NCBI GenBank assembly: GCA_902798385.1
Contig: CADBWK010000013.1
Span: forward strand, 1 to 46,431
DNA length: 46,431 bases
Origin: an uncultured Bacteroidales bacterium
GTDB lineage: Bacteria > Bacteroidota > Bacteroidia > Bacteroidales > Paludibacteraceae
Reading direction: 5' to 3'
The notes under the pieces: generated by a model
Database searches by the model: none
What the model was told of the DNA's origin: nothing
The model's input: only the letters and a program-made list of their open reading frames with translations
Translations under genes and position numbers: made by a program
Part shown: positions 393 through 40,100 of the stretch, in pieces
How positions within the stretch are numbered: position 1 is the stretch's first letter
Layout: each line of letters starts with the position of its first letter

Positions 393-1829
393 ATGGTAAT
401 CAGCGATCCGAAAATAGAGAATCCGATCCTGCATCTGGTGGGTGAAACAGCCGACCGGTTGGGGCTGGAGTGCTATGTGATTGGTGGTTGGGTGCGGGAC
501 CTGTTCCTGCATCGTCCGTCCGATGATATCGACATCGTTGTCGTCGGTTCGGGTATCGCTTTGGCAGAAGAGGTTGCTAAAAAACTCGGTCGCGGCGCCC
601 ACCTGTCGGTGTTCAAGACCTACGGTACGGCGCAAGTAAAGAAGGGTGATCTCGAGTTGGAGTTCGTCGGTGCACGGCGTGAGAGTTATACGCGCGACAG
701 TCGCAATCCGATTGTAGAGGACGGGACGCTTCAGGAAGACCAGAACCGCCGGGACTTTACTATCAATGCCATGGCGATCTGTCTCAACCAAGCACGTTAT
801 GGCGAGTTGTTAGATCCGTTTGACGGTATGGGTGATCTGGAACGCTGTATCATCAAGACGCCGCTGGATCCGGATATCACTTTCAGCGATGACCCGCTGC
901 GTATGATGCGCGCCATCCGTTTTGCAACGCAGTTGGGTTTTAACCTCGACGGCGAGACCTTTGACGCGATCGGGCGTAATAAGGAACGTATAGGTATCAT
1001 CACGCGCGAGCGCATCGCGGAGGAACTGAATAAGATCATGATGAGTCGCCGGCCGTCGGAAGGGTTTATCCTGCTCGACAAGACCGGTCTGCTGCCCCTT
1101 ATCTTCCCGGAGTTAGCAGCGTTGAAGGGCATCGAGGTCAAGGAAGGTCGCGGACACAAGGACGTGTTCTACCACACCCTCAAAGTGCTCGACAATGTAG
1201 CCGAGCTACAGCAGTCAGCCGTCAGCCATCAGCCGTCAGAACATTTTTTATGGCTACGATGGGCGGCGTTGCTGCACGATATCGGTAAGCCGAAGAGCAA
1301 GGCCTTTGATCCGCATGCAGGATGGACATTTAGAAATCACAATTATATCGGGGCGAAGATGGTGCCGAAGATCTTTGCGAAGATGAAACTACCGCTCAAC
1401 GAGAAGATGGAGTACGTGAAGAAGATGGTGGATCTGCATATGCGTCCGATCAACCTCATCGAGGACACCGTGACGGACAGTGCGGTGAGACGGTTGCTTT
1501 TTGAGGCAGGCGATGACATCGAGGATCTGATGCTGCTCTGCGACGCGGATATCACGAGTCGGAACGAAGAGAAGAAAGCGCGCTTCCATCAGAACTATCA
1601 GTTGGTACGGCAGAAGATGGTAGAACTCGAAGAGCGCGACCGCATCCGTAATTTTCAACCGCCCGTGGACGGCATGGAGATCATGGAACTGTTCCATCTG
1701 GAACCCTGTTCGCTGGTGGGCGAACTCAAAGCGGCGATCAAGGATGCCATCCTCGACGGAGTCATCCCCAACGACCACGACGCCGCCAAAGCATTTGTTA
1801 TAGAATTATGGCAGAAGAAAACGAAATAA
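393..1829 (+). CDS. cca: CCA tRNA nucleotidyltransferase with HD domain
   Basis: Adds or repairs the 3' CCA end of tRNAs in the cytoplasm. The class II nucleotidyltransferase head is at about residues 30-60, with GGWVRD and the metal-binding D-x-D in [19 protein letters not shown] (about 120) and [17 protein letters not shown] (about 170) are the ribose- and base-recognition motifs. An HD domain follows, with HTLKV and [11 protein letters not shown] at about 260-310. Length is normal for the HD-containing group. ATG393 is chosen; GTG390 directly before it is equally possible, and both lie just after the promoter. A 7-bp repeat tract at 1212-1239 encodes a short linker ([11 protein letters not shown]) just before the HD motif and does not disturb either domain. 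The 3' end overlaps parE by 22 bp, so the two are probably co-transcribed. Confidence 0.93.
1212..1239 (+). repeat. Heptamer tandem repeat inside cca
   Basis: About four degenerate copies of CAGCCGT (CAGTCAGC, CGTCAGC, CATCAGC, CGTCAG). It is in frame and encodes a linker between conserved blocks. The same heptamer family recurs at 18228-18256. Confidence 0.8.
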
Positions 1830-3727: not shown

Positions 3728-3912
3728 AAGCTCTCCTTGCCTTTATAGTCATGGCGGTGTTGATCCTCGCGCTGATCGAGATCAACGAACGCATCAAAGC
3801 GAAGCGTCCCAAGCAAGACTGTCCTCCAAACAAGTCCGAGCAGGACGACTGCTCGGGCTGCGGATTGATTGAAGTCTGCGAAAAGAAAGAGAAAAGCGCC
3901 ATTGAAAAATGA
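3724..3912 (+). CDS. Small Cys-rich membrane-anchored protein, unknown function
   Basis: A 62-residue protein translationally coupled to parE through an ATGA overlap. One hydrophobic helix (about residues 3-20, [17 protein letters not shown]) is followed by a short basic-acidic tail with four cysteines, including a C-x2-C ([11 protein letters not shown]). This layout (one anchor and a small cysteine cluster) resembles small metal- or thiol-binding membrane proteins, but I do not recognise the family. A terminator overlaps its last codons, so it ends the cca-parE unit. Confidence 0.7.
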
Positions 3913-10442: not shown

Positions 10443-10480
10443 TGTTCTTAGGTTTTAATAAGGGTAATGATTAACTAATA

Positions 10481-10502
10481 TTTAACTTATCTTTAACTTA
10501 TC
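10481..10502. repeat. Perfect tandem 11-bp repeat upstream of the 126-residue gene
   Basis: TTTAACTTATC occurs twice with no gap (10481-10491, 10492-10502), with a weaker third relative just before it (about 10470-10480). It sits 40-60 bp upstream of the start at 10442. Spacing of one helical turn is typical of a protein-binding site. Confidence 0.6.
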
Positions 10503-10587
10503 ACTAACGGGCGCTTGCTTTAATACTCTTGCGAATCGCAGCTCTGCCGCTCATATTTCACATCTCGATATTAAAGAAATTTGCATT

Positions 10588-13134: not shown

Positions 13135-13815
13135 TTATTCTCTGACGGTAATGTGGAAACAGGATTGTTTCCATTCGTACTTGACGTAGATGCGCCCGGC
13201 GCGCTGGTGGTTGAGGAGGACTTGGCCGAGGACGAGTTTGAGGTTATCCTCGTGCATATACAAGTTCGTTCGGGTCACCTTGTCATAGCGCATATAGGCG
13301 AGATCGAAGGTCGTGCCGTAGCAGTGACAGCTCTGGGTGACGGAGTTGATATTGCCGCTGCGCTGCAGGTACTTGATGTCCTCTTGTGTGCGAAGCACGG
13401 AGGTGACATAGAAGCGATAATGGGGCAAACCGTTACGGCTCAGGATATCCGCCCACTCTGCTCCGATGGCATCCAACTCGCGCTTCGCCGCGGGGATGAG
13501 ATACGGTACGGAGTGCGTCAGGCTGTCCACAATATAGTTGTCGTTGGTTGTGATCTGAACGAGACTCTTGCGCATCGATGCGGCATCGGCGCGGTCTTTG
13601 GGCGGTCGCGGCAAACCGATCGCAGATGCTACTTTATGCTGTTTGGCATGCAGGTCATTGAACTTGATCCGATAGTCAAATGTTCGCCCGGGATACCAAA
13701 CAAGGCTGTCTTCAACGACAGCCTGTTCTTCTTGCGATGTACTTGTTCCGCATGAACAAAGGACAACGAGCAACGAACAAAGACAGATTATCTTAAATCG
13801 ACCACTCAAAGCCAT
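13135..13815 (-). CDS. DUF5715 family lipoprotein (M15 peptidase-like)
   Basis: About 226 residues from ATG13815. An upstream in-frame ATG at 13842 is also possible, but ATG13815 gives a compact lipoprotein signal ([21 protein letters not shown]) with the acylated Cys in VLCSC. The C-terminal half has [25 protein letters not shown] and a final CFHITV. The His and Asp of H-x-Y-G-x(3)-D and the last His match the zinc ligands expected in M15-type D-Ala-D-Ala carboxypeptidase folds. It probably acts on peptidoglycan or a related periplasmic substrate; this is inferred from the motif only. The hydrophobic part of the signal peptide is encoded by a 7-bp tandem repeat (13754-13786). It overlaps the end of cysS. 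Confidence 0.75.
13754..13786. repeat. Heptamer tandem repeat coding for a signal peptide core
   Basis: GAACAAA, GGACAAC, GAGCAAC, GAACAAA, GACAG on the plus strand. Read on the minus strand it encodes [12 protein letters not shown] of the DUF5715 lipoprotein. Confidence 0.75.
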
Positions 13816-15256
13816 CCTTTGTATCTTTGATTTGGAAACCAAGTGCGGTCAACTCATTACGTATCTTATCGCTGGTTGCCCAGTCTTTGTTCTGCTTGGC
13901 TTGGAGACGGATACCGAGAAGCAGATCAATGGCGCCATTAAAGGCTTTCTGTTTGCCGGCATCGCCGCCCTGCTCTTCGAGGCGCAGACCGAGGATATCG
14001 ATGGCGAAGGTCTTCCATACCTCGCGCAGTTCGTTCAGGTCCGCTTCGCTGATCGTACCCTTGCCGTCATGGACGGTGTTGATAGCGCGTGTGCTGTCAA
14101 ACAGCGCCGCAATGACGAACGGGGTATTCAGGTCGTCGTCCATCGCCTCTTGGCAACGCTGGCGCAAACCTGCGACCTCTACCGTTGTCTCTTTTCCCGC
14201 CTGCAATTTCTGCAAACGAGTATACGCTTCTTGCATACGCTGCAGACCCTTTTCTGCCGCTTCGAGGGCTTCGGACGAGAAGTCCACCGTGGAGCGGTAA
14301 TGCGCCTGGAGGATGAAGAAACGGATGACCATCGGACCGAAGGGTTTCGACAAGAGCGGGTGATCGCCCTTGAAGAACTGCTCGAGGGTGATGAAGTTAT
14401 TATAAGACTTCCCCATCTTCTTGCCGGCGATGGTGATCATGTTGTTATGCATCCAGTAATGTACGGTCTCGTGACCGAGTGCAGCGCACGATTGCGCGAT
14501 CTCCGCCTCATGGTGCGGGAAGATGAGATCGAGTCCGCCGCCGTGGATATCGAACTGCTCACCGAGGTATTTCGTTCCCATGGTGGAGCACTCCATATGC
14601 CATCCGGGGAATCCTTCGGACCACGGACTCGGCCAGTGCATGATATGCTCCGGCGCCGCTTTCTTCCAGAGGGCGAAATCGTAGCTGTGCTTCTTCTCGT
14701 CCTGTCCGTCCAGTTCACGGGTCTCGGTGACGATATCATTGAGGTTACGACCGGAGAGTTTACCGTACGGATAGTCCTTGGCGTATTTCTCCACGTCCAT
14801 ATAGACAGAACCGTTGGATACGTAGGCGTAGCCTTTGTCCAGAATCTTCTGCACAAAGGCGATCTGCTCGATGATATGTCCCGAAGCGTGGGGCTCGATG
14901 GACGGCGGCAAGACGTTCAGCGCCGCCATGTCACGATGGTAGCGGTTGGTGTAGAACTGCACCACTTCCATCGGTTCGAGTTGCTCAAGTCGTGCTTTCT
15001 TAGCTATCTTATCTTCGCCTTCGTCGGCATCATGCTCGAGGTGCCCCACATCGGTGATATTCCGCACATAGCGCACTTTATAACCGAGGTATTGCAGATA
15101 GCGGTACAGCAGATCGAAGGTGATGGCCGGTCGCGCATGTCCGAGATGGGCATCGCCATAGACGGTAGGTCCGCAGACATACATGCCCACGTGCCCCTCG
15201 TGCAGCGGTTTGAAGGTTTCCTTAAAGCGTGATAAAGAATTATAAATTTCAAGCAT
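13793..15256 (-). CDS. cysS: Cysteinyl-tRNA synthetase
   Basis: Charges tRNA-Cys with cysteine. The zinc-binding and HIGH-type regions are at the N-terminus ([19 protein letters not shown]; the HIGH signature reads HLGH). The middle has GWHMECSTM and the zinc-site HHEAE. The KMSKS loop reads [11 protein letters not shown] at about residue 270. 487 residues is normal. Upstream, 14 bp away, is nagB; a short CAGTAAT/CAGTTTT repeat fills the gap. Its 3' end overlaps the DUF5715 gene, so the two are co-transcribed. The Ser-to-Gly change in the KMSKS loop is mild and I would not read it as loss of function. Confidence 0.95.
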
Positions 15257-15270
15257 TCAGTAATCAGTTT

Positions 15271-16080
15271 TTAGAGTAGGGTCTTGGGATCGAGGTTATT
15301 GCGCTCGATATCTTTGAAATAATTGAATGTACCTACTTTGAGTTCTTCGCAAGCAGCCTCATCGCAGACGATGATACCGTGCTGATGCATCTGGAGCGCA
15401 GAAACGGTCCACATATGGCTGATCGGCTCTTCGATAGCATGCTGGAGTGCACGGGCTTTGTTATGTCCGTTCACCATGATCAGCACCTCTTTGGCGTCCA
15501 TCACGGTACCTACCCCTACGGTGAGGGCGGTCTTGGGCACTTTATTGACGTCATTGTCGAAGAAACGACTGTTGGCGATGATGGTGTCGGTGGTCAACTC
15601 TTTTTTACGCGTACGACTGCTCAGGGACGAACCCGGTTCGTTGAACGCGATATGTCCGTCGGGACCGATACCGCCGAGGAAGAGGTGGATACCGCCGATA
15701 TTGCGGATCTTCTCCTCGTACCGTGCGCACTCGGCTGCGAGGTCGGCTGCGTTACCGTTCAGAATATTGACGTTCTCCTTGCGGATATCAATATGACTGA
15801 AGAAGTTATTCCACATGAAGCTATGATAACTCTCGGGATGCTCTTCGGGCAGGTTGACATACTCGTCCATATTGAAGGTGACTACATTGCGGAAGGACAC
15901 CTTACCGGCTTTATTGAGTTTGATCAGCTCGCGATACATACCCAGGGGCGACGAACCGGTCGGCAGACCGAGCACGAAAGGACAACCCTCTTTGGGTTCA
16001 AACTCATTGATTTTTTTTGCTACATAATTCGCAGCCCACTGACTCAGCAGGTCATACGAAGGTTCAATAATAACTCGCAT
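15271..16080 (-). CDS. nagB: Glucosamine-6-phosphate deaminase
   Basis: Converts glucosamine 6-phosphate to fructose 6-phosphate and ammonia, feeding amino sugars into glycolysis. Full length (269 residues; the E. coli enzyme has 266). Visible motifs are [16 protein letters not shown] (phosphate binding), [10 protein letters not shown] (catalytic Asp region) and [17 protein letters not shown] with the Asp-Gly-His of the active site at about residues 141-143. It lies between glgB and cysS with gaps of about 14 bp on each side, so it is probably in one operon with them. Confidence 0.95.
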
Positions 16081-16106
16081 TTATGATTTATGATTTATGA
16101 TTTTTT
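16081..16106. repeat. Heptamer tandem repeat at the glgB 3' end
   Basis: Three copies of ATGATTT and a degenerate fourth. The glgB stop codon and its last residues (KKS) are made from this repeat. Confidence 0.75.
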
Positions 16107-18176
16107 GAGGACGACAGCACTACGTGCGGGCAGGTACATCTTGAGCCAACCCTTGCCGTCCTTGGCGTAGAGTTCGTCGTGCTCGGTGAAATGCTCGACG
16201 GTGTCATCGCTCAGACCGAAACCGGCGAACTCTTTGGCATCCGTATTGAGTACCACTTTGTACTTGCCTTCGGGCACGAGCATACCGTAGTCGGCGAAGG
16301 ACTTCTGGCCGTTCCAGTTGAAGATGAACAGCAGGTCGTTGCGCGAATAAGCCACTACCTGGTCGCCCTCGTTGTCCCACCATTTCATGACCCACGGCAG
16401 GTGTTTGCCTACATTGTATTTCTTCTCCTCCGCCGTCGGGTTCTGGCTGAGGATATGCTTCTTGAGCAGATGAATCATCTCGGCATCAAAGCGATTGAGG
16501 TCGGCGAAGAAATAGTTGGGGTTATCGACGAGACTCCACTGCCGGCGCGCGTACTTATAGCTCCATCCGTTGCCCTCGCGCGGGAAATCGATCCATTCGG
16601 GATGACCGAACTCATTGCCCATGAAGGTAAGGTATCCGCCATTGATGGTGGATGCGGTTACGAGTCGGATCATCTTATGCAGCGCGATACCGCGGTCGGC
16701 CATATAGGTGGAGTGGCCATGCTCGAAATGCCAGTACATGTCGGAGTCCACGAGACGGAAGATGATGGTTTTGTCGCCCACGAGCGCCTGATCATGACTC
16801 TCGGCGTAGGAGATCGTCTTCTCATCCTCGCGGCGGTTGGTCATCTCATAGAGGATGTGACCGGCTTTCCAGTCTTCGTCTTTCACCTCTTTGATATACT
16901 TGATCCAGAAATCAGGAATACCCATCGCCAGACGATAGTCGAACCCTACACCGCCATCCTCGATAGCCGCAGCGAGCCCCGGCATACCGGACATCTCTTC
17001 GGCGATCGTGATCGCCTCCGGCTTCACCTCATGGATGAGCTTGTTCGCCAGCGTGAGATACATCAACGCGTCGCCGTCTTCGTTGCCGTTGAAATAAGAA
17101 GGATAACCGTTGAAGTCCTCGCCCAGACCGTGGCTGCGGTATATCATCGATGTCACGCCGTCAAAACGATAGCCGTCGAAATCATACTCATCCAACCAGA
17201 ACTTACAGTTACTGAGCAGGAAATGGAGCACCTCGTTCTTGCCGTAGTTGAAGCAAAGGCTGTCCCAAGCCGGGTGCTCACGGCGGTAACCGTCGTGGAA
17301 ATACTGATAACCCGTTCCGTCGAAGTTACCCAGACCCTCGAGTTCGTTCTTCACCGCGTGGCTGTGCACAAGGTCCATGATCACGTGCATACCGCGACCG
17401 TGGGCGTCATCGATGAGGGCTTTGAGTTCATTCGGCGTACCGAAACGGCTGCTGGCCGCAAAGAAATTCGATACATGGTATCCGAACGAACCGTAATACG
17501 GGTGCTCCTGGATGGCCATGATCTGAATGCAGTTATATCCTAATTTGTCAATACGGGGCAACACATCGCGGCGGAACTCCTCGTAAGAGTTCACTTTCTC
17601 CTGCTCGGATGACATACCGATATGGCACTCGTAGATATAGAGCGCTTCGCGCGATTTTTGATTTGTGATTTTTGATTTGTGATTTCTATTCTTCCACTGG
17701 TACTCGGGTTCGTTCCAAACCTGGGCAGAGAAGATCTTCGTCTGCTCGTCCTGTACGACGCGGCGTACGTAAGACGGGATACGCTCGCCGTAACCGCCGT
17801 TCCACTCTACGAGCAGCTTGTACATCTGTCCGTGCTGCATGGCTTTCTCCGGCAGTTTGGCTTCCCATACGCCGTTGCCGACCGGTTGCAGACGATAGGC
17901 CTCGTCCTTGCTCCAGTTATTGAAATCGCCCTTGATATAGATAGCCGTTGCATTCGGCGCCCACTCGCGCAGGACCCAACCCTTGTCGGTATGATGCAGA
18001 CCGAAATAAAGGTAACCGGTTGCCCACTCGGCGAGCGGTTGTCCGCCGGTGATCTCTGCCTCTTTATTACGTGCATAGTCGGCGCGTGCCTGAAGGGCAC
18101 CCTCGTACGGTTGCAGATACGGATCACGCTCCACGATCTTCAGATGCTTCGGAGCTGTTGCTTTTTTTGTTGCCAT
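16095..18176 (-). CDS. glgB: 1,4-alpha-glucan branching enzyme
   Basis: Makes alpha-1,6 branches in glycogen. 693 residues, the eukaryote-like size class common in Bacteroidota. A CBM48 module is at about 60-150 (WVLREWAPNATAIYIKGDFNNW). The GH13 barrel follows with DLVHSHAVKN, DGYRFDGVTSMIY (nucleophile Asp), ITIAEEMSGMPG (acid/base Glu) and ESHDQALVGDKT (third Asp). A heptamer repeat (17653-17687) encodes RNHKSKITNQKSR at about residue 165, in the linker just before the conserved LYIYECHIGM block. First gene of a run with nagB, cysS and the DUF5715 gene. The start MATKKATAPKHLK is well placed. Confidence 0.94.
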   Translation of the reverse strand: MATKKATAPKHLKIVERDPYLQPYEGALQARADYARNKEAEITGGQPLAEWATGYLYFGLHHTDKGWVLREWAPNATAIYIKGDFNNWSKDEAYRLQPVGNGVWEAKLPEKAMQHGQMYKLLVEWNGGYGERIPSYVRRVVQDEQTKIFSAQVWNEPEYQWKNRNHKSKITNQKSREALYIYECHIGMSSEQEKVNSYEEFRRDVLPRIDKLGYNCIQIMAIQEHPYYGSFGYHVSNFFAASSRFGTPNELKALIDDAHGRGMHVIMDLVHSHAVKNELEGLGNFDGTGYQYFHDGYRREHPAWDSLCFNYGKNEVLHFLLSNCKFWLDEYDFDGYRFDGVTSMIYRSHGLGEDFNGYPSYFNGNEDGDALMYLTLANKLIHEVKPEAITIAEEMSGMPGLAAAIEDGGVGFDYRLAMGIPDFWIKYIKEVKDEDWKAGHILYEMTNRREDEKTISYAESHDQALVGDKTIIFRLVDSDMYWHFEHGHSTYMADRGIALHKMIRLVTASTINGGYLTFMGNEFGHPEWIDFPREGNGWSYKYARRQWSLVDNPNYFFADLNRFDAEMIHLLKKHILSQNPTAEEKKYNVGKHLPWVMKWWDNEGDQVVAYSRNDLLFIFNWNGQKSFADYGMLVPEGKYKVVLNTDAKEFAGFGLSDDTVEHFTEHDELYAKDGKGWLKMYLPARSAVVLKKS
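17653..17687. repeat. Heptamer tandem repeat inside glgB
   Basis: Five copies of GATTTNT (GATTTTT, GATTTGT, GATTTTT, GATTTGT, GATTTCT). It is 35 bp long, in frame, and codes for a polar linker. The same family is in miaB and tsaB. Confidence 0.85.
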
Positions 18177-18193: not shown

Positions 18194-18256
18194 CTATCAG
18201 TATTCAGTTTTCAGCATTCAGTTTTTTCTGACAGCTGATAGCTGACGGCTGACGGC
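18194..18256. repeat. Two blocks of heptamer repeats upstream of glgB
   Basis: CAGTATT, CAGTTTT, CAGCATT, CAGTTTT are followed by CTGACAG, CTGATAG, CTGACGG, CTGACGG. The second block is the reverse complement type of the cca tract (CAGCCGT). The two blocks can pair partly with each other. No promoter is obvious in this gap, although glgB begins just to the left. Confidence 0.75.
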
Positions 18257-22054: not shown

Positions 22055-23392
22055 TTACACGATTTCACCCCGTAAAGTGGCAGCCGTGGCATCGAGAATG
22101 CGAATATTGACTATATCTCCGATCTTCTGGTCCGTTCGCGGGAAAACCACCGTCTTGTATTGCTCCGTACGACCGAACATATCGTCATGGCTACGTTTGG
22201 AGAATCCTTCTACGAGCACCTCGACGGTCTTGCCGATCTCCCGTTGGTTGGACTCGAGCGATAGTTGGGTCTGGAGCGCAATGATCTCATTGAGTCTCCG
22301 CACTTTCTCTTCCTCGCTGATGTTGTCCGGAAGATGCTTATGCGCATAGGTGCCCGGACGCTCGGAGTACTTGAACATAAACGCAGAGTCAAAGCCCACC
22401 TCGCGCATGAGGCTCAGGGTCTGCGCATGATCCTCGAGCGTCTCATCATGGAAACCGCAGAAGATATCCGTACTAATCGCCGCCGTCGGTAAGATGCGAC
22501 GGATCGCCGCGATACGATCGAGGTACCACTCACGCGTATACTTACGGTTCATCAGTTTGAGGATGTGGTTCGAGCCGGACTGCACAGCCAGATGAATGAA
22601 CTTACAGAGGTTCTTATGCCGACTGATGGCCTCGAGCGTCTTATCGCTCATATCCTTCGGATGGCTCGTGGTGAAACGAATACGCATATCGGGTACGGCA
22701 TCCGCTACGATCTCGAGTAAGTCCGCAAAATCCACCACCGTACCATCTTCGCGCACGAACTTATAGGAATTCACGTTCTGTCCGAGGAGCGTCACTTCCT
22801 TGTACCCCTTGGCTTGCAGGTCTTTGACCTCATTGAGGATGGACTCCACGTCCCTGCTCCGCTCGCGACCGCGGGTGTATGGCACCACGCAATAGGAGCA
22901 GAAGTTATTGCATCCGCGCATGATGGACACGAAGCCGCTGATGGAGCGCCCGATACGCGCGGGGATGATCTGGCGATAGGTCTCCGTCGTACTGAGTTCC
23001 ACATTCATCGCCTTATGTCCCTGCTCGCATTGCGCCAAGAGGTTCGGGATATCAAGATAGGCATCGGGACCTGCCACGAAGTCCACACCAAAATCATCGA
23101 TCAGTTCCTGCCCCATACGTTCCGCCATACAACCGATGACGCCAATAATTGGCGATTTGTGATTGGCGATTTGTGATTTGTGATTTTTGATGTGCGCCTT
23201 CAGTTCGCGGAGACGGGCACCGACTTTCTGCTCGGCGTTATCGCGGATGGAGCAAGTGTTAATCAGGATGATATCGGCATCCTCCCACTGCTCGGTGAGT
23301 TGGGCATCGGTTGTCTCCATGATCGCCGCCACCACCTCACTATCCGCCACATTCATCTGGCATCCGTATGTCTCAATATAGAATTTTTTCAT
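22055..23392 (-). CDS. miaB: tRNA-2-methylthio-N6-dimethylallyladenosine synthase (MiaB)
   Basis: Radical SAM methylthiotransferase that modifies A37 of tRNAs reading UNN codons. The N-terminal UPF0004 domain has three cysteines for one Fe-S cluster (YGCQMN, NTCSIRD, IGCMAERM). The radical SAM motif C-x3-C-x2-C is in GCNNFCSYCVVPYTRGRERS (about residue 160). A TRAM domain ends the protein. A heptamer tract (23153-23190) encodes IKNHKSQIANHKSP in the linker before IIGVIGCMAERM. It is transcribed divergently from tRNA-Pro. Confidence 0.95.
   Translation of the reverse strand: MKKFYIETYGCQMNVADSEVVAAIMETTDAQLTEQWEDADIILINTCSIRDNAEQKVGARLRELKAHIKNHKSQIANHKSPIIGVIGCMAERMGQELIDDFGVDFVAGPDAYLDIPNLLAQCEQGHKAMNVELSTTETYRQIIPARIGRSISGFVSIMRGCNNFCSYCVVPYTRGRERSRDVESILNEVKDLQAKGYKEVTLLGQNVNSYKFVREDGTVVDFADLLEIVADAVPDMRIRFTTSHPKDMSDKTLEAISRHKNLCKFIHLAVQSGSNHILKLMNRKYTREWYLDRIAAIRRILPTAAISTDIFCGFHDETLEDHAQTLSLMREVGFDSAFMFKYSERPGTYAHKHLPDNISEEEKVRRLNEIIALQTQLSLESNQREIGKTVEVLVEGFSKRSHDDMFGRTEQYKTVVFPRTDQKIGDIVNIRILDATAATLRGEIV
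23153..23190. repeat. Heptamer tandem repeat inside miaB
   Basis: GATTTGT, GATTGGC, GATTTGT, GATTTGT, GATTTTT, GATGTGC. In frame; encodes the NHKSQIANHKS linker. Confidence 0.85.
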
Positions 23393-23541: not shown

Positions 23542-26166
23542 TTATTTCAATAGAGGCAGGTTAACTTCGGTTACTGCCTTTATTTGTATCTGTTGCAGGA
23601 TCGTTTGCATCTCGGCGTTCTTCTGCGCCATACCAACCCACCATTCTGCTTCATCCAGATCGGCAAAGCCGCTGATACGCAGCGCGCATCCTTCACCCCA
23701 TACGGGTAGTTTCTGCAGATCGAAATCGCGGATAAGGAACTGACTGAAGTTGAACAACGCCACTTCGTACAGCAGTTCATTGAGTGCCTCTTCGTTCGCC
23801 GTCGGCATGATGAGCAATACCACAGACGGCTGTTTACGGTCTTCCGACCATACCTGCGTGGAGTCAGAAGCCTCAGCTTCTTCGGTCTTATCAGACTGGT
23901 TACGCAGTTCCGCCAGATCGCCGGTAGTACCGCCTTTCTGGCTCTCCATTCCCTGTCCCATCATCGCGAGCATGTCCTTGGCCATCGAACCCAACTCCGT
24001 CTCGCCATAACCGGCTACGAGTTCTTGCAGGGCAGTGATAAACGCCGGTTGTCCTTCCGTACGTGCGACGGCTACGGCATTCAAGAAGAGGAATCGAGGC
24101 GCAAGACGCCATCTGTCATTGGTCATTGGTGATTTGACATTAGCTACATTCGTCTTGACCGTTGCATACTCGCCTTTGGTATAGGCGGTGTACGTCGCGA
24201 GATAGAGCGAGTCCTGTTCGTCCAGGAGCTTACGCATACGGGCGATATAAGCCGTATCATTGCGCAAGGCGCGCAACCGTTCGTCCTCGAAGATGTCGTC
24301 CAGACTCGGATGACCGGCGAAACGCTCCACTAACTCACGCAGCGTCTCTTGCGCCAGTTCTTCGTCTTGCAGTTTGTCGCGGTAGATATAATAGAGCGCA
24401 ATCATGCCCTCGCGCCAGAGACTGTCGCTAAGCAGATAGTCCTGTTCGGTGCGCGGGATCTGCTGGAGGTAATAAGCCGGATCATGCGGATCGGTAGAAA
24501 GCGGAATCCGCTCTTGTCCGATCGAGTCGGTTCGTAAGGAATCGCCTCCGAGACTGTCGGGGAATGCCTCATTCTCATCATTGAGCGCAGCGCCGATTTC
24601 ATCATTGACCACGACTTGCTTATTCTGCCGGCGCCAGTTATCCTCGAGCGGACGGTTACCCCAACGGCGCCGCCATTCCTGTTGACCTTGCTTGATGAGT
24701 TGCGGGTTATAGAAGTACCACTCGCCTTTCTGCATGTTACCCGCGCCTAACATATTCGCCGTATTGACGCTTCTCAGACCATCATCGCCTCGCGCGAGCT
24801 CGAGTGCTTCCTCAGCTTGCCGGGTGGAGTCTTGTTTCTCCGCCTCGATGAGATCAGCAATGATCTGATCGACGATAGCGCGTTGCTCCTCTTCGGTCAT
24901 ATGACCGAGTCGCTGGAGTGAGTCTTGCAGTTGTACCTGGGTATAGGCGACAATCAGTTCGTCCAGTACCTCGGAGCGTTTCTGCACGCGTGCATAGTCG
25001 GGGTTCTCTGCCGTGAGGATCGTCACCGCCTCGCGGTAACAAGGCTGCGCCTGCGGGTACGCGCGTTGCTCAAAATAGATATCTCCTGCGCGCACGAGGA
25101 TAGCCGCCTTGGCCGTACCGGCCTGGGTCGATTCTGCGATTGCTTTCTCGTACATCTCCAACGCCTTGACCGTATCGCGTGCCGCGAGGTATATATTACC
25201 CATCGCGCCGTAGATCTGATCCAGACGATCTTTGTATTTGGACTGCTTGGTCATCGTGCGCAGTTTGCGAATGGATTTCTTGCCGCCGAGTTCCGCCATG
25301 CGGATACGCGCATTAAAATCCATCTCATTGACCGGCGCCATACGGATGACCTGCTTATAGGCATGGATAGCCTCTTCGGGTTGGTTCTCTTTCTCGTAGA
25401 GTTGCCCGAGCACGTAAGCAAAACGCGGACGATAGATCTTGCGTTTCTCGTACGGCATGGCTATCTTCACAAAGGGAAGGGCATCGTGATAGTGCTCGCC
25501 ATGCAGGAGTACATCGGCTTTGACAGCGGAATAAAGTTTCGCATGCTTGCGGCTGAGTGCATCGATCTGCACGCGGTGCATCATGTCTTCCGCTTCATAC
25601 TGCCAGCCCATCTCGGCGTATGCACGTGCAATCCAGAGCTGGCATTGCGCGATCATGTCGGGATCGTTCTGGTAGTGGTTGATGATATAATTGAAAGTAC
25701 TGACGGCGCCAAGGAAATCACCTTTATGGAACTCTGCCTGCCCGAGGCGGAGCCATGCGAGGTGCATGTTCTTATTGAACTCCTCCGATTGGAGCCACAG
25801 TTTATATTTGGGATCGTTCGCCTTTTTCGGGTCACGTTTCGGTTTCGCTTTGATAGAGTGCAGTTTGATGCACTTACGGCATTTGTCGATGGTCTTATCC
25901 ATCTGGGAAGTAGCCGCCTGTGCCGCCGTATGATTGGACACAGGATAGAGATAGAGGACGCGTGAGTAGTCGTCCGTGTTGGCATCGCGGATGGCCTTCA
26001 GACCTTCGTCGTACGCGATATTGCCGTTATAGAGAATATTGTATTTGACTTTCGTCTGATGGAACGATCGCGTCGCCCAGGTGTTCTTCTGGGTAGAACA
26101 TGAGGAAAGGATCATCAGTAAGATGATGATAGATGATAGATGATAGATGATATATGATCTTTTCAT
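23542..26166 (-). CDS. porW: T9SS periplasmic lipoprotein PorW/SprE
   Basis: 874-residue TPR lipoprotein needed in known species for type IX secretion, and in gliding relatives for motility. Lipobox ILSSC ends the signal peptide. The mature start CSTQKNTWATRSFHQTKVKYNILYNGNIAYDEG matches the SprE/PorW N-terminus as I know it. TPR-like helices follow at about 120-400 (AWLRLGQAEFHKGDF, ARAYAEMGWQYEAEDM, AYKQVIRMAP, ALEMYEKAIAES, ILVRAGDIYFEQRAYPQA), then charged and low-complexity regions. The signal peptide is encoded by a heptamer repeat (26122-26158), and another tract lies at 24115-24142. Overlaps tsaB as ATGA, so it is the last gene of a surface-protein operon. Confidence 0.85.
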   Translation of the reverse strand: MKRSYIIYHLSSIIILLMILSSCSTQKNTWATRSFHQTKVKYNILYNGNIAYDEGLKAIRDANTDDYSRVLYLYPVSNHTAAQAATSQMDKTIDKCRKCIKLHSIKAKPKRDPKKANDPKYKLWLQSEEFNKNMHLAWLRLGQAEFHKGDFLGAVSTFNYIINHYQNDPDMIAQCQLWIARAYAEMGWQYEAEDMMHRVQIDALSRKHAKLYSAVKADVLLHGEHYHDALPFVKIAMPYEKRKIYRPRFAYVLGQLYEKENQPEEAIHAYKQVIRMAPVNEMDFNARIRMAELGGKKSIRKLRTMTKQSKYKDRLDQIYGAMGNIYLAARDTVKALEMYEKAIAESTQAGTAKAAILVRAGDIYFEQRAYPQAQPCYREAVTILTAENPDYARVQKRSEVLDELIVAYTQVQLQDSLQRLGHMTEEEQRAIVDQIIADLIEAEKQDSTRQAEEALELARGDDGLRSVNTANMLGAGNMQKGEWYFYNPQLIKQGQQEWRRRWGNRPLEDNWRRQNKQVVVNDEIGAALNDENEAFPDSLGGDSLRTDSIGQERIPLSTDPHDPAYYLQQIPRTEQDYLLSDSLWREGMIALYYIYRDKLQDEELAQETLRELVERFAGHPSLDDIFEDERLRALRNDTAYIARMRKLLDEQDSLYLATYTAYTKGEYATVKTNVANVKSPMTNDRWRLAPRFLFLNAVAVARTEGQPAFITALQELVAGYGETELGSMAKDMLAMMGQGMESQKGGTTGDLAELRNQSDKTEEAEASDSTQVWSEDRKQPSVVLLIMPTANEEALNELLYEVALFNFSQFLIRDFDLQKLPVWGEGCALRISGFADLDEAEWWVGMAQKNAEMQTILQQIQIKAVTEVNLPLLK
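24115..24142. repeat. Heptamer tandem repeat inside porW
   Basis: GTCATTG, GTCATTG, GTGATTT, GACATTA. It encodes NVKSPMTND. The same family as 26391-26430 and 37251-37286. Confidence 0.75.
26122..26158. repeat. Heptamer tandem repeat coding for the PorW signal peptide
   Basis: Four to five copies of GATGATA and a variant. On the minus strand this gives SYIIYHLSSIII, the hydrophobic core of the signal peptide. Confidence 0.85.
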
Positions 26167-26861
26167 TTCAATCCTTTCACGTGACTTTGGGCGGCGATGA
26201 ATTCCTTCAAATAGAAGGGTTCGTAATAGGCCAGATCAATCGATTTTTGATTTTCGATTTTTGATTTTTGATTTTCGGCCAATACGCCAACAAACCGTGC
26301 TTCGGGTACGATGTTCGGCACCAAGTGCCAGTTGGGTTTGGTGAAGACCTTAGAGCATTTCTCTGCGCCGTCACCAAAATAGTAAACCGATTGGTCATTG
26401 GTCATTGGTAATTGGTCATTGATCAATGATTCTTCGTTCTCGACTACTACCGCCTTTGTCTCGCCATCAATCATCGTATATACCTCCATGCGACGGGCGT
26501 CGATCATGGGGATAAGAACGATTTTCGATTCTCGATTCTCGATTTTGGATTTGGCTGCTTCGCAGAGTATCTCCAATGTCGGAATGGGGATCAGGGGTAC
26601 GTTGAGACCGTAGCAGAGGCCTTTCGCGGTTGAGGCTCCTATACGGAGACCGGTATAACTGCCGGGACCCTCGGAGAGGGCAACGGCATCGATAGTCAGA
26701 TCCTGCTCGCGCGCAAGACGGAGCAGTTCGTCAATATACAAAGGCAGCAACCGTGCATGGTTGCTTCCTTCGTAGTTGATACACTGTTTGATCAGCGCGC
26801 CATCCTTGCAGATGGCGGCTGAACAAACCGATGTACTAGTTTCGATACATAGTATCGTCAT
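26163..26861 (-). CDS. tsaB: tRNA threonylcarbamoyladenosine biosynthesis protein TsaB
   Basis: Partner of TsaD and TsaE in making t6A37 in ANN-decoding tRNAs. 232 residues, with the ASKHA-type start ILCIETSTSVCSAAI, SEGPGSYTGLRIGASTAKGL and PMIDARRMEVYT. Three separate heptamer tracts interrupt it: KSKIENRESKI before the IDARRMEVY block, LINDQLPMTNDQ in the middle, and ENQKSKIENQKS before the C-terminal YYEPFYLKEF. All are in frame and fall between conserved blocks, adding roughly 30 residues. Stop overlaps the porW start (ATGA); it begins 3 bp after the outer-membrane protein gene. Confidence 0.92.
   Translation of the reverse strand: MTILCIETSTSVCSAAICKDGALIKQCINYEGSNHARLLPLYIDELLRLAREQDLTIDAVALSEGPGSYTGLRIGASTAKGLCYGLNVPLIPIPTLEILCEAAKSKIENRESKIVLIPMIDARRMEVYTMIDGETKAVVVENEESLINDQLPMTNDQSVYYFGDGAEKCSKVFTKPNWHLVPNIVPEARFVGVLAENQKSKIENQKSIDLAYYEPFYLKEFIAAQSHVKGLK
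26242..26276. repeat. Heptamer tandem repeat inside tsaB (third tract)
   Basis: GATTTTT, GATTTTC, GATTTTT, GATTTTT, GATTTTC: 35 bp, encoding ENQKSKIENQKS. Confidence 0.85.
26391..26430. repeat. Heptamer tandem repeat inside tsaB (second tract)
   Basis: TTGGTCA, TTGGTCA, TTGGTAA, TTGGTCA, TTGATCA, encoding INDQLPMTNDQ. TTGGTCA is also the unit of a known cyanobacterial STRR, as I remember it. Confidence 0.85.
26520..26554. repeat. Heptamer tandem repeat inside tsaB (first tract)
   Basis: GATTTTC, GATTCTC, GATTCTC, GATTTTG, GATTTGG: 35 bp, encoding KSKIENRESK. Confidence 0.85.
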
Positions 26862-28261: not shown

Positions 28262-31150
28262 TTATTTAACGATGTAACGTAAAGTTGATTTCATGCTGCT
28301 ATTGCTCAGCTCAACGATGTAGAAGCCCTGCTCGAAGGCAGCCTTGATCGGGTACGTGGTCTCGCCATGTGCCTTATAGGTAGCCTGGAGCGCACCTTCC
28401 GCCGTATAAACGCGGATGATTGTCTCTTCCATCGGATCGAGGTTGACTACGCGTATATCCTCACCCGGTTGAGCATACGACGGCATGAGAGCCGGAGCGC
28501 CTGCAGAAGCGGTGATGGTATACAGAATCGTCTTACCTATCGCGCCGCAAGACTCGCCGACAGCTGGGAGATTGATCTCCGCGAAGTAAACGCCGGCAGG
28601 CAGCGGATCGCCGCTCGGTAAGGTGTAGTAATAACCTGTTCCTAAGAAGGTAGTATCACCCGAAGCCTCGATACGATACCATTCTACTAACTCAGGATGC
28701 TCAGTATCGAGCGAGTCGAGATGCCATCCCGGGATCTCGTTGATCTGGTTACGGTTGATCATGATGATACGATCACCATAGTAACCCTTGATATCCAGCG
28801 TGGTCTCATACGGCACGTCGATCTCAACGGTCAGCGTAACGATCGAGTCGCAGTTCTGGTAGGTCTGGAACACGTGCGTGTAGGAGTTGATACCGCCATC
28901 GATGATGGTCGTATCTGCCTCTGCCCAGTAGTACATGTTACATTTCTTACCTACGTTAACTGTCTTCGTTACGGAATTGTTGATCGTCAAGTGGAGCGTT
29001 ACGGTTGAATCACATCCTGCTGCGTTCGTGAACACATGCGTATAGTCGCCCGAAGTCGTGCATGTATGCTCATACCATACGAACTGATCGCATTCAACAG
29101 CCGTCGTATCGCCTACCGTTGACTTGTTAAGCGTCAAGTGCAGCGTTACAACCGAGTCACAACCTACGGCATTACCTCCAATGAAGGTATGTACGTAGTC
29201 GCCCGAAGCCGTGCATGTATACTCGTACCAAATGAACTGATCGCATTCAACAGCCGTTGTATCACCCGTAGACGGAGACAACAACGTGAAGTGCAGCGTT
29301 ACAACGGAGTCGCAACCTGCTGCATTACCGCCAATGAAGGTATGTACGTAGTCGCCTGTAGAAGCACAGGTGTTCTCATACCAGATGAACGTACCGCAGT
29401 TCGATGCTGTCGTATCGCCTACTGTCGGCTCCAACAGCGTGAAGTGCAACGTTACGGTTGAGTCACATCCTGCTGCGTTCGTGAATACATGCGTATAGTC
29501 GCCTGTAGAAGCACAGGTGTTCTCATACCAGATGAACGTACCGCAGTTCGATGCTGTCGTATCACCCGTAGTCGGCTCTAACAGCGTGAAGGTCAACGTT
29601 ACCGTCGAGTCACAACCTGCTGCATTGCCGTTCGGGAATGTATGGTAGTACGTACCGGTAGCAGCACAGGTATTTTCATACCAGATGAATGTACCGCAGT
29701 TCGTAGCCGTCGTATCGCCCGTAGTAGATTGGAGAATCTCAACCGTCAGCGTGACAATCGAGTCACAACCGCCAACATTCGTACCAACGTGCGTATAGGT
29801 ACCGGAGGTGTAAATAGCCGAGTCGCCGGCGAATGCCCAGTAATATACATCGCATTGCGGTCCCGGATCCGGTTCTGTACCATAAGTCGTTACGCAAGCC
29901 TGCTGTACGTGCAACGTCAAGTTGATAATCGAGTCACCTGATGTACCTACGCGCGGGAGGATGAGTTGCTCGGTAGTATCCTTTACAGCTGTCGGTTTCA
30001 TCAGATGGCAACCGAACAGGTAGGTCTCGCCCAACGTGATCGTCTCCTCGTAAGCTACCGTAATCGGCGCATTCTGTACGTGCAGTGTCAGGTTGATGAT
30101 CGAGTCACCTGTTGTACCTACGCGCGGAAGCGTGATCTGGTCGGTTACGTCACCTGCAACTGTCGGCTTAATCGGATTACAACCGAACAGATAGGTTTCG
30201 CCCAACGTGATCGTCTCCTCGTAGGATACTACAACCACTCCACCAGCACCCGCAACCGTCAGGTTACAGATAATGATCGAGTCTCCCGCTGCACCTACGC
30301 GCGGAAGAGTCTGTGTCAACTGCTGCGGACCGCTCTCAGAGAACTTGTACGCCTGGCATCCGAACAGGTAATACTCATCAACCATGATCGTCTCATCGTA
30401 CGTTACCGTAACATCCGGTACTGCTTGTACGTGAAGCGTCAGATTGATGATCGAGTCACCGGCCGCACCTAAGCGCGGAAGAGTGATCTGGTCGGTCACG
30501 TCACCTACGGCTGTCGGTTTCATCGGAGTGCAACCGAACAGATAAGTCTCGCCCAACGTGATCGTCTCTTCGTACGATACCGTAATATCCGGTACTGCCT
30601 GTACGTGAAGCGTCAGATTGATGATCGAGTCACCGGCTACACCGATACGCGGAAGAGTGATCTGGTCGGTCACGTCACCTACGGCTGTCGGTTTCATCGG
30701 AGTGCAACCGAACAAGTAGGTCTCGCCCAACGTGATCGTCTCCTCGTACGATACCGTAACGTCCGTAGAAGCCTGTACAGACAAGTGCAGAGTCACGGTG
30801 CTATCGCACGCGCAACCTACTTGCTGCAAGGTCTCCGTCTCCGTCGCATCCGCTGTCAGCTGCTGACATCCAAACAGATAAATCTGTCCGGGCTCGATGG
30901 TAGCGTTATAGGCAACATCCTTCTGCGAAGCGAAGAGCAGGTGAACAGTCACCGTGCTATCGCCGGCAGCGCCTAAACGAGGCATTGTCTCGTCGTAATC
31001 GCCTGAGCCAGTCAGTTGCTGACAACCGAACAGGTACGTACCGGGCTTACACAGCGTTTCAGAATACTGCGTATTAACAGCCGCGTTCAACGATACAGTG
31101 CTCAGTAGCGTCAGCAGGGTTAATAAATATAGTTTACTTTTGCACAACAT
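28262..31150 (-). CDS. Secreted repeat adhesin-like protein with T9SS sorting domain
   Basis: 962 residues. Signal peptide (KSKLYLLTLLTLLSTVSLNA). Then seven units centred on YLFGC, spaced 45-75 residues, each ending in GDSxxxLxLxV. A second set of about seven follows, built on CGTFIWYENTC or CDQFxWYE, with GCDSTVTLHLTL. Each unit of the second set has Cys pairs that probably form disulfides. The C-terminus (VVNLDPMEETIIRVYTAEGA ... FYIVELSNSSMKSTLRYIVK) is a type A T9SS sorting domain. It is probably exposed on the cell surface. Units are nearly identical at DNA level in places (30000-30740). It leads the operon with the barrel protein, tsaB and porW. Confidence 0.82.
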   Translation of the reverse strand: MLCKSKLYLLTLLTLLSTVSLNAAVNTQYSETLCKPGTYLFGCQQLTGSGDYDETMPRLGAAGDSTVTVHLLFASQKDVAYNATIEPGQIYLFGCQQLTADATETETLQQVGCACDSTVTLHLSVQASTDVTVSYEETITLGETYLFGCTPMKPTAVGDVTDQITLPRIGVAGDSIINLTLHVQAVPDITVSYEETITLGETYLFGCTPMKPTAVGDVTDQITLPRLGAAGDSIINLTLHVQAVPDVTVTYDETIMVDEYYLFGCQAYKFSESGPQQLTQTLPRVGAAGDSIIICNLTVAGAGGVVVVSYEETITLGETYLFGCNPIKPTVAGDVTDQITLPRVGTTGDSIINLTLHVQNAPITVAYEETITLGETYLFGCHLMKPTAVKDTTEQLILPRVGTSGDSIINLTLHVQQACVTTYGTEPDPGPQCDVYYWAFAGDSAIYTSGTYTHVGTNVGGCDSIVTLTVEILQSTTGDTTATNCGTFIWYENTCAATGTYYHTFPNGNAAGCDSTVTLTFTLLEPTTGDTTASNCGTFIWYENTCASTGDYTHVFTNAAGCDSTVTLHFTLLEPTVGDTTASNCGTFIWYENTCASTGDYVHTFIGGNAAGCDSVVTLHFTLLSPSTGDTTAVECDQFIWYEYTCTASGDYVHTFIGGNAVGCDSVVTLHLTLNKSTVGDTTAVECDQFVWYEHTCTTSGDYTHVFTNAAGCDSTVTLHLTINNSVTKTVNVGKKCNMYYWAEADTTIIDGGINSYTHVFQTYQNCDSIVTLTVEIDVPYETTLDIKGYYGDRIIMINRNQINEIPGWHLDSLDTEHPELVEWYRIEASGDTTFLGTGYYYTLPSGDPLPAGVYFAEINLPAVGESCGAIGKTILYTITASAGAPALMPSYAQPGEDIRVVNLDPMEETIIRVYTAEGALQATYKAHGETTYPIKAAFEQGFYIVELSNSSMKSTLRYIVK
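30000..30740 (-). repeat. Near-identical tandem units of the adhesin gene
   Basis: The segments around 30000-30060, 30170-30220, 30510-30580 and 30690-30750 repeat the same sentence of DNA (TCGCCCAACGTGATCGTCTC and flanks) with few changes. This marks recent duplication or gene conversion and allows slippage or recombination. Confidence 0.7.
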
Positions 31151-36268: not shown

Positions 36269-36271
36269 GTA

Positions 36272-36292: not shown

Positions 36293-36304
36293 CTCTTGTT
36301 TCTA

Positions 36305-36996: not shown

Positions 36997-37004
36997 CTAC
37001 TAGT

Positions 37005-37165
37005 TATTTTTGATATTTTTGTGATGATTGATTATTAACTCTTAGAGTTGAGGATTATTTGGATAAAGTGATCTGTAAATCTATTTATGAGAGCACTTTA
37101 GCTAAATAAGACTCATGTACGCAGTACTAATCAATCATCTATTTTTTTTTATAATTTTTCTTTTA
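37005..37165. repeat. Dispersed repeat, copy B
   Basis: 161 bp. The core 37023-37139 has perfect 12-bp ends GATGATTGATTA and TAATCAATCATC. It lies between the HEPN start and the end of the InlB-repeat gene. Confidence 0.85.
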
Positions 37166-37171
37166 TATAAA

Positions 37172-40100
37172 CTACTCAACCATGATACCATCCGTAGTAT
37201 ACGTATGCCCACCACGAATGATATAAATGCGCCCATCAATCATGACCTTATTGGTGATCGGTGATTGGTGATCGGTGATTGATTCAAATCCTTCCGTCTT
37301 CTTATGCGCCGTGTATGTCGCATAATATGCCGCATCACTCGTCACAGCCGTCACTCTCGGCGACCAGCCTGCGAAGGTGTAGATATACTCTTCATCATCC
37401 TCCTTAGTCGGTGCCTCTCCTTGGTAAGCCGGCACTACGCCATAGGCTACCAACTGGTTCTCCAACTCCGTACCATCCTCATCCAGGAACTGCACCGTGT
37501 ACATATTCACTACCGTCTTATAGACTGCCGTATAGGTGGCGTTACCCGTTACCTCGGCCAACTCCGGACTCCAGCCCGTGAAGGTATAGCTATAATGCGC
37601 ATTACCTCTCCGCTCCGGTGTACCCGTATATTGAGGCACCGTACCATACGCCACGTTCGCTTTCAGCAACTGCGCACCGTTCCAGTCCTTAAATAGGATC
37701 TCGTACTCTTTCGGTTTCTTGTTAAAGTTCGCCGTATAGTTTACATCACCCGTTACCTCCGTTATTTCCGGACTCCAGCCGGCGAACACGTAGTAATAAT
37801 GCTCTTCCGCCACACGCGACGGCGTGATATCGATGCTCGGCATCTCGCCATACGCCACTTCCGTGGACTTGATCACCGTCACGCCATCCTCAAAATAGAA
37901 GGTCACCGTGTACTTATTGATCACACTGTCAAACTGCGCTATATAGCTTGCCTCACCGGTTACGGTCGAAACCTCCGGACTCCAGCCCTTGAAGGTATAC
38001 GTATATTTCGCCGTGCTCTCCTTATTAATATTCGCGTGCGCGGGCGTGCTGCCATACTCCACTTCGGCTTGATCGATCACCGATCCATCATCCATCAGCC
38101 ACGTGATGGCATAACTCCGCTTTGTAGCCGTGAAGGCCGCCGTGTACGTAGCTTCGCCGGTTACCGCTACCGGCTCAGTTGTCCAGCCGGAGAAGGCATA
38201 ACTAAACTCTGCGCTGCTCTCTTTCGTCGGTGTCTCTCCGTTATAGGCAGGGATCTCGCCGTAGAGGACTGTCGCCTGACTAAGCTGCGTGCCATCCTCA
38301 TTCAGCCATGTGATCGCATAACTGCGCTTCGTTGCCGTAAAGGATGCCGTATAACTTGCTTCGCCTGTTACGGCTATTGGCTCAGTTGTCCAGCCGGAGA
38401 ACACATAACTAAACTCTGCACTGCTCTTTTTCGTCGGTGTCTCTCCGCTATAGGCAGGAATCTCGCCGTAGAGGACTGTCGTCTGGCTAAGTTGCGTGCC
38501 GTCCTCATTCAGCCATGTGATGGCATAACTCCGCTTCGTAGCGGTAAATGCCGCTGTGTACGTCGCTTCGCCTATTACCGCTACCGGCTCAGTTGTCCAG
38601 CCGGAGAACACATAACTAAACTCTGCGCTGCTCTCTTTCGTCGGTGTCTCGCCGTTATAGGCAGGGATCTCGCCGTAGGCTACCGGAGCTTGACTAAGCT
38701 GCGATCCATCCTCGTTGAGCCACGTAATCATGTACTTTCTATGCGTAGCAGTATAGATCGCAGTGTATGTTGCATCACCGGTCGCTGCGACCACCTCAGG
38801 TGACCAATTAGTGAAGGTATATTCATGCTGGGTATCAGCTATCTTTGTCGGAGTCTCATCGCATGACGGAACCTCTCCTTCTGCTACTTGTTTTGCCTCC
38901 AGCAGAGTACCATCCTCATCCAAGAACCGAATGGTATGATAACGTGGGTCGCAAGGATAGAAATAATGATTGTCTTCAAAAGATATAAGCCCCCCGCTGT
39001 TCCAAGTACCTAATATCTCTCGACGAAGCTTGGCTTGCGCATCTTCATCATACGTCTGCTCATTGCGAGACTTATAAGTCCACGTATTATTCAGCCACGT
39101 ATATTCGTTGTTTTTCACCAAAGTTCCGCCTTTATACTCTTTCTCATTTTTTGTTTGATTTACCCAACCATTATTTGCGTATTGTTCTACGATATGCTCT
39201 ATTTCATTTTCCGAACCATCATAACTGAAACTATTACGATATTCGTATACCCAATCCGAACCGCCCCACTTATAAATTATATAGAAGTTAGTCGAGCCAT
39301 TAGTATTGAATGTATATTCTGTCTTATTAGAACCTTTCCAATAATTGGTCGAGTTATCCCATCCCACGTATGTAGCTATCATACTACGACGTCCGCGCTC
39401 ATCATATCTATACTCGTTACGGATATTTCCTTTCCAACCATTATTCCATAAAAAAGATTGTTCATCTATACTTCTTTCTTGCTCATCATAGTAAACTTTA
39501 GACATGGATACCGGCTTCCAATCATTATTCTGCCATCCTTTGTATGAAGCGGTATAAAGTTGTTTCTCCATGGTAGAATTAAGATAAAGAGCCGTGTCCT
39601 TTTTCACACCAATCCATACCGAATCGCTTCCGCAATTCCATTCTGCCGTAAGCGTCTGGCGCTGACCATTGACAACATGATCGACAATATCCTTTCTGGT
39701 CATCGACTTTAATGTCCAGCGATTATTGGTCCATGTCGCTTTATGCGTCATGATATTTGTCCCTGCAGCATTGAATCTGTTGATCGTGCGCTCCACAGGA
39801 GTCCAAACGACACCATCACTCGTATATTTCGTTATGGTATCATTCTTACCACTCGTCCAGTGATAGTCTGTTCGACCGGTCGTTTGCCATGCATCATTTT
39901 GCCACGCAGAGGTAGTTTCTTTCGTTTTATTCGTTCCCGTATACTCTGTCTCGGTGCGATTAGTATTCACCCAATCTTTACTATCTGCCGACCAGGACAT
40001 CTCAATCACATCTATCGGATTGTTGCCCGAATAGGTTGTTTTCGTCCGGGTATACACACCAACCCATTCATCATTTTTCCAGTTGTAAACACAATTATCT

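Follow-up and report, generated by a model that had tools for sequence, protein, structure and literature searches.

Period-7 arrays in the window

The DNA stretch analysed here (the window) comprises 46,431 nucleotides from an uncultured Bacteroidales bacterium and carries cca, cysS, nagB, glgB, miaB, porW and tsaB, together with a DUF5715 gene, a YhcH-family gene and a large gene at 37172–41314 for which family searches returned no family match. Within and between these genes lie short tandem arrays whose units vary between sites and species while their length stays at 7 nt. The arrays exceed chance expectation, are present or absent and change unit at fixed sites, and alter their copies jointly and in register. 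The lengths of two coding loops, one in miaB and one in tsaB, form clusters at a base length and at 21 or 42 nt above it, with other in-frame differences also present. The window is contig 13 of a genome of 1.92 Mb in 44 contigs that is 74% complete. Among named sequences, its MiaB is closest to those of uncultured rumen Bacteroidales (RUG644, RUG715 and others) and of Paludibacteraceae metagenome-assembled genomes (MAGs), and the host is a rumen Bacteroidales species near those Paludibacteraceae MAGs.

Tracts were detected with Tandem Repeats Finder (TRF) and with a simple period scan that scores +1 for a match and −3 for a mismatch to the base 7 positions on; a strong tract has a score of at least 10. 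Gene calls came from a codon-score caller written for this analysis. The window holds the following period-7 tracts:

1209–1239: unit CAGCCGT, inside cca (TRF and scan)
13754–13780: weak, degenerate, GAACAAC/GAACAAA, at the DUF5715 gene start and cysS end (TRF 75% matches, score 33; below scan threshold)
16079–16103: unit ATTTATG, perfect, at the junction of nagB start and glgB end (TRF and scan)
17653–17685: GATTTTT and GATTTGT alternating, inside glgB (TRF and scan)
18197–18256: two adjoining tracts, TCAGTAT-like and CTGACAG-like, in the glgB leader between glgB and the YhcH-family gene (TRF)
23154–23191: GATTTGT/GATTGGC, miaB loop (scan)
24115–24134: short, GTCATTG, 2.9 copies, inside porW (TRF and scan at mismatch −2)
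26125–26158: GATGATA, porW lipoprotein signal region, in frame by reading (scan)
26242–26275: GATTTTT, tsaB site D (scan)
26390–26430: ATTGGTC, tsaB site C (scan)
26519–26552: CGATTCT/CGATTTT, tsaB site A (scan)
37253–37279: GGTGATC/GGTGATT, near the end of the 37172–41314 gene (TRF and scan)

The scan returned ten strong period-7 tracts, against a mean of 0.1 and a maximum of 1 in 50 shuffles that preserved dinucleotides within 500-base blocks. Periods 4–6 and 8–13 gave 0 or 1 tract each; periods 14 (10 tracts) and 21 (5) are multiples of 7. With a mismatch score of −2, 11 tracts reached at least 10 (0.15 when shuffled) and 13 reached at least 8 (0.65 when shuffled). A first-pass annotation of this DNA had listed heptamer repeats at no fewer than 13 loci, and those named in cca, the nagB/glgB junction, glgB, the glgB leader, miaB, porW, tsaB and the 37172–41314 gene, a putative InlB-repeat gene in that annotation, were recovered by TRF or the scan. 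Two other named sites are weak: the DUF5715 tract and the nagB–cysS gap, where about three degenerate copies ending in TCAG or TTAG near 15253–15275 are visible by eye and were missed by both programs. Gene-internal tracts lie in open frames, as had been claimed, and their position between conserved blocks was seen for tsaB and miaB, whose alignments were compared.

Abundance across the genome and the genus

The genomes examined are mostly draft MAGs, one per species, and all length comparisons are between species; loci are labelled L and genomes G. Twenty further stretches of the window's own genome were sampled. Four of these (L007, L010, L016 and L025) were chosen for containing (GATTTTT)3; they are excluded from the 297-kb own-genome count and from clade densities, and included in the 50-array own-genome location and unit sets and in the coding/non-coding spectrum. 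The other 16 stretches (297 kb, not picked for repeats) contain 23 period-7 tracts versus 0.4 in shuffled sequence. Counts in genome and window thus stood far above the shuffled level, the comparison on which the first-pass annotation had staked its proposal. Among other periods in the 297 kb, 14 (24 tracts) and 21 (10) are multiples, followed by 11 (10), 22 (7), and 8 and 9 (5 each). Tracts are denser around tsaB and miaB than in the sampled stretches on average (10 in the 46-kb window versus 23 in 297 kb), so window densities overstate the genome.

Across 21 own-genome and 60 congeneric stretches (1435 kb), we counted 84 coding and 55 non-coding or edge tracts of period 7, compared with 2 and 0, respectively, when the sequence was shuffled once. 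Of periods 3–13, period 7 is the commonest both inside and outside genes, periods 6 and 8 totalling 10 and 21, and its density is 345/Mb outside genes versus 66/Mb inside. Tract lengths range from 17 to 65 nt. In their excess over chance and in having 7 nt as the commonest unit length, the arrays agree with heptanucleotide-type long simple sequence repeats (LSSRs) of 5–11 nt. Period 11 ranks second outside genes (40 non-coding or edge tracts; 7 coding), and this 11-nt class, with periods 22 and 33, carries units of its own. Tracts of the class also occur in the window (10471–10508) and at L014:17665–17728, L024:11521–11576 and L172:13104–13161.

The 50 own-genome arrays spread over many canonical units, all of length 7, in accordance with the earlier claim that several unrelated heptamers share one length, a pattern that extends to congeners. 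Thirty-three of them are gene-internal, 6 lie at gene edges and 11 are intergenic. Of 89 internal coding arrays, 16 have a consensus unit with a sense-strand stop codon, which casts doubt on a portion of the gene calls or of the short tracts.

Richness in period 7 is a trait of the window's clade, where it reaches 150/Mb (53 in 352 kb; ten genomes, 19 stretches) versus 34/Mb in nine other congeners (11 in 326 kb; 18 stretches), and period 11 shows 31/Mb versus 52/Mb; the 7-to-11 ratio differs between the two groups (Fisher p = 6e-5, uncorrected for kinship). The window's own genome stands at 77/Mb. On a TsaB tree of the 48 of 61 genomes with a nearly full TsaB among the gene calls, many of whose forks are weak, period-7 richness is clustered, requiring 8 changes versus a shuffled mean of 15.8 (0 of 500 shuffles as low). 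Two of the nine 7-poor genomes, G038 and G050, are off the tree and were assigned to their group from TsaB identity (57 and 52%). A Y-family polymerase (PF00817), examined as a candidate correlate, was found in 48 of 61 genomes; at least two arrays occur in 19 of 37 tree genomes with it versus 2 of the 11 that lack it (Fisher p = 0.08). Independent pairs gave no significant difference, and gaps in MAGs can mimic absence.

Among 80 named miaB loci, no period-7 arrays were present in 7 titled Bacteroides, 4 Muribaculaceae/Paramuribaculum and 2 Prevotella, and several more distant named loci are rich in arrays: L078 (10), L096 (7), L073 (6) and L128 (5; a Prevotellaceae MAG). The first-pass annotation had set its proposal against conservation of the same tracts across distant Bacteroidales. 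In the miaB loop alignment, arrays were absent from Bacteroides, Prevotella, Muribaculaceae and most other distant rows, with the qualification that congeners do repeatedly carry arrays in these loops, built of other units. Separately, L205 (G015:C1:5001–25000) packs ten period-7 arrays into 20 kb. AAAGGTG is the unit of several, and two sequences are each present twice, which looks like duplication of an array-bearing stretch.

Arrays in the miaB and tsaB loops

Gene-internal arrays occupy tolerant loops and preserve frame; in tsaB and miaB the reading frame stays open. In an AlphaFold2 model of the window MiaB (mean predicted local distance difference test score, pLDDT, 82), the array forms a coil between a helix and a strand (block 71–80, pLDDT 63), and the corresponding segment of the solved MiaB 7mjv is shorter by about 7 residues. 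Loop lengths cover the rows caught by motif patterns: 29 for miaB and 27, 35 and 33 for tsaB sites D, A and C. L064 and L058, copies of L164 and L139, were excluded from the loop-length, lag, ortholog length-difference and unit-pair analyses; they are still counted in the named-locus tract counts, unit lists, shared-tract comparison and miaB loop alignment.

The miaB loop is exactly 48 nt long in 12 of 29 rows and 69 nt in 5, the latter being the array-bearing L165, L175, L177 and L062 and, with a hairpin insert, L059. Other lengths are 51 nt (window), 45 nt (L061) and 63 nt (L141). The 48-nt loops carry different units: AGTCGAA (L057, L085), AGTGGAA (L164), AGCCAAG-like (L150) and AAATCTC (L139). 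Decayed arrays of the same length as fresh ones are found in L138, L153, L060 and L056. Orthologous miaB arrays hold register and change stepwise through AATCGAA, AGTCGAA and AGTGGAA, and within the 48-nt loops a base difference recurs at lag 7 in 27% of cases (306/1148) versus 2.4–7.3% at lags 2–6 and 8–12. At tsaB, lag-7 recurrence is 13.6% for site A (4.0–5.8% at other lags) and 13.7% for site D (3.7–6.0%). Six array-less rows of tsaB site A measure 48 nt; of its 11 array-bearing rows, six measure 69 nt, one 90, and four 66, 72, 75 and 78.

The sister locus L138 is 84.6% identical to the window over 8.1 kb, and three of the eight indels of at least 4 nt fall at window period-7 tracts. Arrays at tsaB sites A and C are present in the window and absent from L138, the same-site difference between sisters that had been expected. 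Site D is identical over 34 nt in the two species and a single base distinguishes their porW signal arrays, which shows that arrays can be stable.

Outside the genus, L100:10218 and L101:9599 (water-buffalo Bacteroidales MAGs; MiaB 66–67% identical to that of the window) carry a 7-mer array of AGAGCCA type in the same miaB loop.

Hairpin inserts at the same loops

Loops that bear 7-mer arrays in some species carry, in others, in-frame hairpin units of the form TCAG-stem-CGAAG-stem-GGTCT, often in tandem, with paired stem changes (TCCGAAGGA, CACGAAGTG, TTCGAAGAA). They occur in the miaB loop of L137, L160, L168, L170, L173, L059 and L063 and at tsaB sites A/C of L139, L156, L057, L063, L137 and L167. 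The pattern matched in 48 of 61 genomes, with up to 59 (G002), 44 (G007) and 33 (G022) matches versus at most 3 per genome for the reversed-pattern control. A strict pattern gave 10 matches in relatives' loci (6 sense, 2 antisense, 2 outside genes), and a looser one gave 24 in 15 of 81 loci, 20 of them in genes. By look, the units resemble the in-frame palindromic elements of Rickettsia. As a source of arrays in the window's genome, hairpin elements are unlikely, given 1 pattern match there versus 2 for the reversed control.

Two further kinds of repeat were noted. At window position ~23542, L141 has ~173 nt extra right after a tRNA-like 3′ end (GGTCGCGTGTTCGAATCACGTC), built of repeated similar copies. 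The window also contains long tandem repeats of 147–174 bp at 29043–30778 (gene 28262–31150) and of 207 bp at 38095–38729 (gene 37172–41314), which look like repeated domains.

Proposed slippage with a 7-nt step and its alternatives

Loss of mismatch repair, judged on MutS, was rejected as a cause of the arrays: MutS has a match in 60 of 61 genomes, above the family cut-off in 56. The five genomes below the cut-off include G018 (no match), G031 and G059 (weak matches), all three incomplete MAGs, and G018 and G059 belong to the 7-rich clade. Loops of 7 nt exceed the size usually corrected by MutS-type repair, so an intact mutS would be no barrier to slippage.

The best explanation, which we consider reasonably probable, is replication slippage with a preferred 7-nt step, filtered by the reading frame and giving concerted evolution. 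A slipped strand would re-pair one or a few units away, and the resulting gain or loss would be fixed. In intergenic DNA, arrays could survive with any number of units; inside genes, selection would retain frame-preserving net changes (three units, or a gain offset by a loss), and these in tolerant loops alone. Repeated gain and loss would carry single-base variants across copies, letting the unit drift as length and register persist, and arrays would decay through point mutation once slippage slowed. Slippage of this kind would account for the length classes, the concerted change, the decay and the higher intergenic density. A published proposal, given in PMC4679880 and PMC4692102, has the slippage step set by a 7-nt polymerase contact.

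Several observations weigh against this explanation. The sequences of L138 at tsaB sites A and C are unrelated to the window arrays and 18 nt shorter, which indicates replacement instead of clean insertion and speaks against the simplest slippage. Lag-7 recurrence at tsaB site C is only slightly raised (6.0% versus 2.9–4.4%), and the remaining array-less rows of site A span 54–90 nt. Copies are 0.923 identical at lag 1 and 0.903 at lag 4; identity hardly drops with lag, so gradual drift of units along an array was rejected, and the values also fit arrays written in one event. The coding share is 84/139 for period 7, 3/21 for period 8 and 7/47 for period 11, so that periods 8 and 11 are plentiful outside genes and rare inside. 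Stop codons do not explain why 7 is tolerated in genes, since 73% of random tandems of 7-mers, 70% of 8-mers and 63% of 11-mers are stop-free, too small a difference.

The frame itself constrains the step. Essential genes cannot retain a net 7-nt change, since a single unit gained or lost shifts the frame, and in E. coli tsaB is such a gene; slippage there would therefore require fast rescue of intermediates, three-unit events or several copies written at once. Fifty-two internal arrays have three or more array-less orthologs for comparison of length. In 11 of them the modal difference is +7 residues and in 8 it is 0; a further 11, equal to the +7 class and again unfavourable to slippage, have +6 (6 arrays) or +5 (5 arrays), and 4 have +2. 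The interpretation in the first-pass annotation, with its fixed 7-bp step, stands in part: many units share one length, but a net step of 7 is barred by the frame inside essential genes, and an 11-bp class coexists in these genomes.

The main rival is copying between arrays of one genome by ectopic gene conversion or templated insertion, which would give each genome its own repeat dialect and let arrays be born as several units in one step, overwriting local sequence. Of 1687 pairs of unlinked arrays within a genome, 74 (4.4%) have the same unit, 3.5 times the share expected: AT-stratified permutations gave 1.25%, and none of 2000 reached the observed value. The excess persists when the window's genome is left out: of the 490 remaining pairs, 6.5% have the same unit and 15.3% agree within one mismatch, versus 8.1% within one mismatch in permutations. 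The miaB loop and tsaB site D have a common unit in L057, L141 and L164. Copying would also fit arrays that replace local sequence instead of just extending, and copies that are almost equally alike at every lag. Against this, the unit differs in more than 95% of unlinked within-genome pairs, orthologous arrays hold register and change stepwise as in local drift, and shared composition or duplicated genes could yield part of the dialect. We judge copying unlikely as the main source.

Less likely still, in our view, is a lineage-specific replication or repair activity with a built-in 7-nt step that would write several copies per event, overwriting local sequence in and between genes; with congeners favouring an 11-nt step, step length would be an evolvable property of one replication component.

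We also regard it as improbable that the arrays are selected functional sites, for instance phase-variation switches or sites that a nucleoid protein or regulator binds in a 7-nt register. Several tracts do lie at gene junctions or near gene starts, and related heptamers elsewhere are proposed as regulatory (PMC4679880) and constant repeat size is taken as a sign of function in Bacillus (PMC8161180). However, units are highly diverse within one genome, most own-genome arrays (33/50) are gene-internal, including those in cca, miaB and tsaB, and sites appear or vanish between sister species. Finally, inherited and selectively kept protein segments, or chance or assembly artefact, can be set aside as very improbable: the genomes are mostly draft MAGs and some tracts are common to the window and L138, but shuffled controls contradict chance, the same unit length occurs in intergenic DNA, separately assembled species have arrays at the same loops with other units, and the tracts are shorter than an ordinary read.

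Relation to known repeats

Cyanobacterial short tandemly repeated repetitive sequences (STRRs) are known from Calothrix and Nostoc. The window unit ATTGGTC is a rotation of the STRR2 unit, TTGGTCA. The arrays described here resemble STRRs in being tandem 7-mers; unlike STRRs, they have no dominant consensus, and the TTGGTCA-type unit accounts for 1 of 50 own-genome arrays. Kinship with STRRs, to which the first-pass annotation likened the tracts, is therefore unsupported, and membership was rejected on unit diversity. Heptanucleotide STRRs are described in cyanobacteria (PMC4692102). TAACTGA direct repeats occur in Beggiatoaceae, some Cyanobacteria and some Bacteroidetes (PMC4679880); they too are heptamer arrays with a patchy distribution that includes some Bacteroidetes, but comprise one heptamer mostly just upstream of start codons, whereas here many heptamers occur, many of them inside genes. 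The varied units and the gene-internal share (33/50) exclude membership in that group.

Heptanucleotides were reported to be the most abundant repeat class in most repeat-rich genomes (Mrazek et al. 2007, via PMC4679880 and PMC4692102). Like the LSSRs of 5–11 nt treated there, the present arrays show an excess of varied 7-nt units and are phylogenetically patchy. They differ from those LSSRs in that most own-genome arrays are gene-internal, where units that are not multiples of three were unexpected, and in the turnover of units at fixed coding loops with 21-nt length classes. Subirana and Messeguer described tandem repeats of constant size and variable sequence in Bacillus (20–21 and 52 nt; PMC8161180). 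The likeness lies in constant length without constant sequence, lineage specificity and several families per genome; here, in contrast, the unit is 7 nt, period 21 is its multiple and an 11/22-nt class is added. A high density of short tandem repeats, also within genes, is reported for Bacteroidota (PMC12699852).

A literature search that was thin in subscription journals turned up no account of heptanucleotide arrays that are in frame and fall into 21-nt length classes in Bacteroidales, and we therefore see the arrays as a variant of the known phenomenon. They bring heptanucleotide repeats into a new lineage, in a form that lies more often inside genes, and are distinct from the cyanobacterial STRR family.

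A 7-nt bias of bacterial tandem repeats has been reported since 2007 without a tested mechanism. Because lineages rich and poor in period 7 occur in one genus and have homologous arrays in conserved genes, the bias is open to study by comparing relatives, and the reading frame serves as a built-in ruler for event size. The arrays also call for caution: repeat dynamics, and not selection on the protein, can be what reshapes a loop in a conserved protein.

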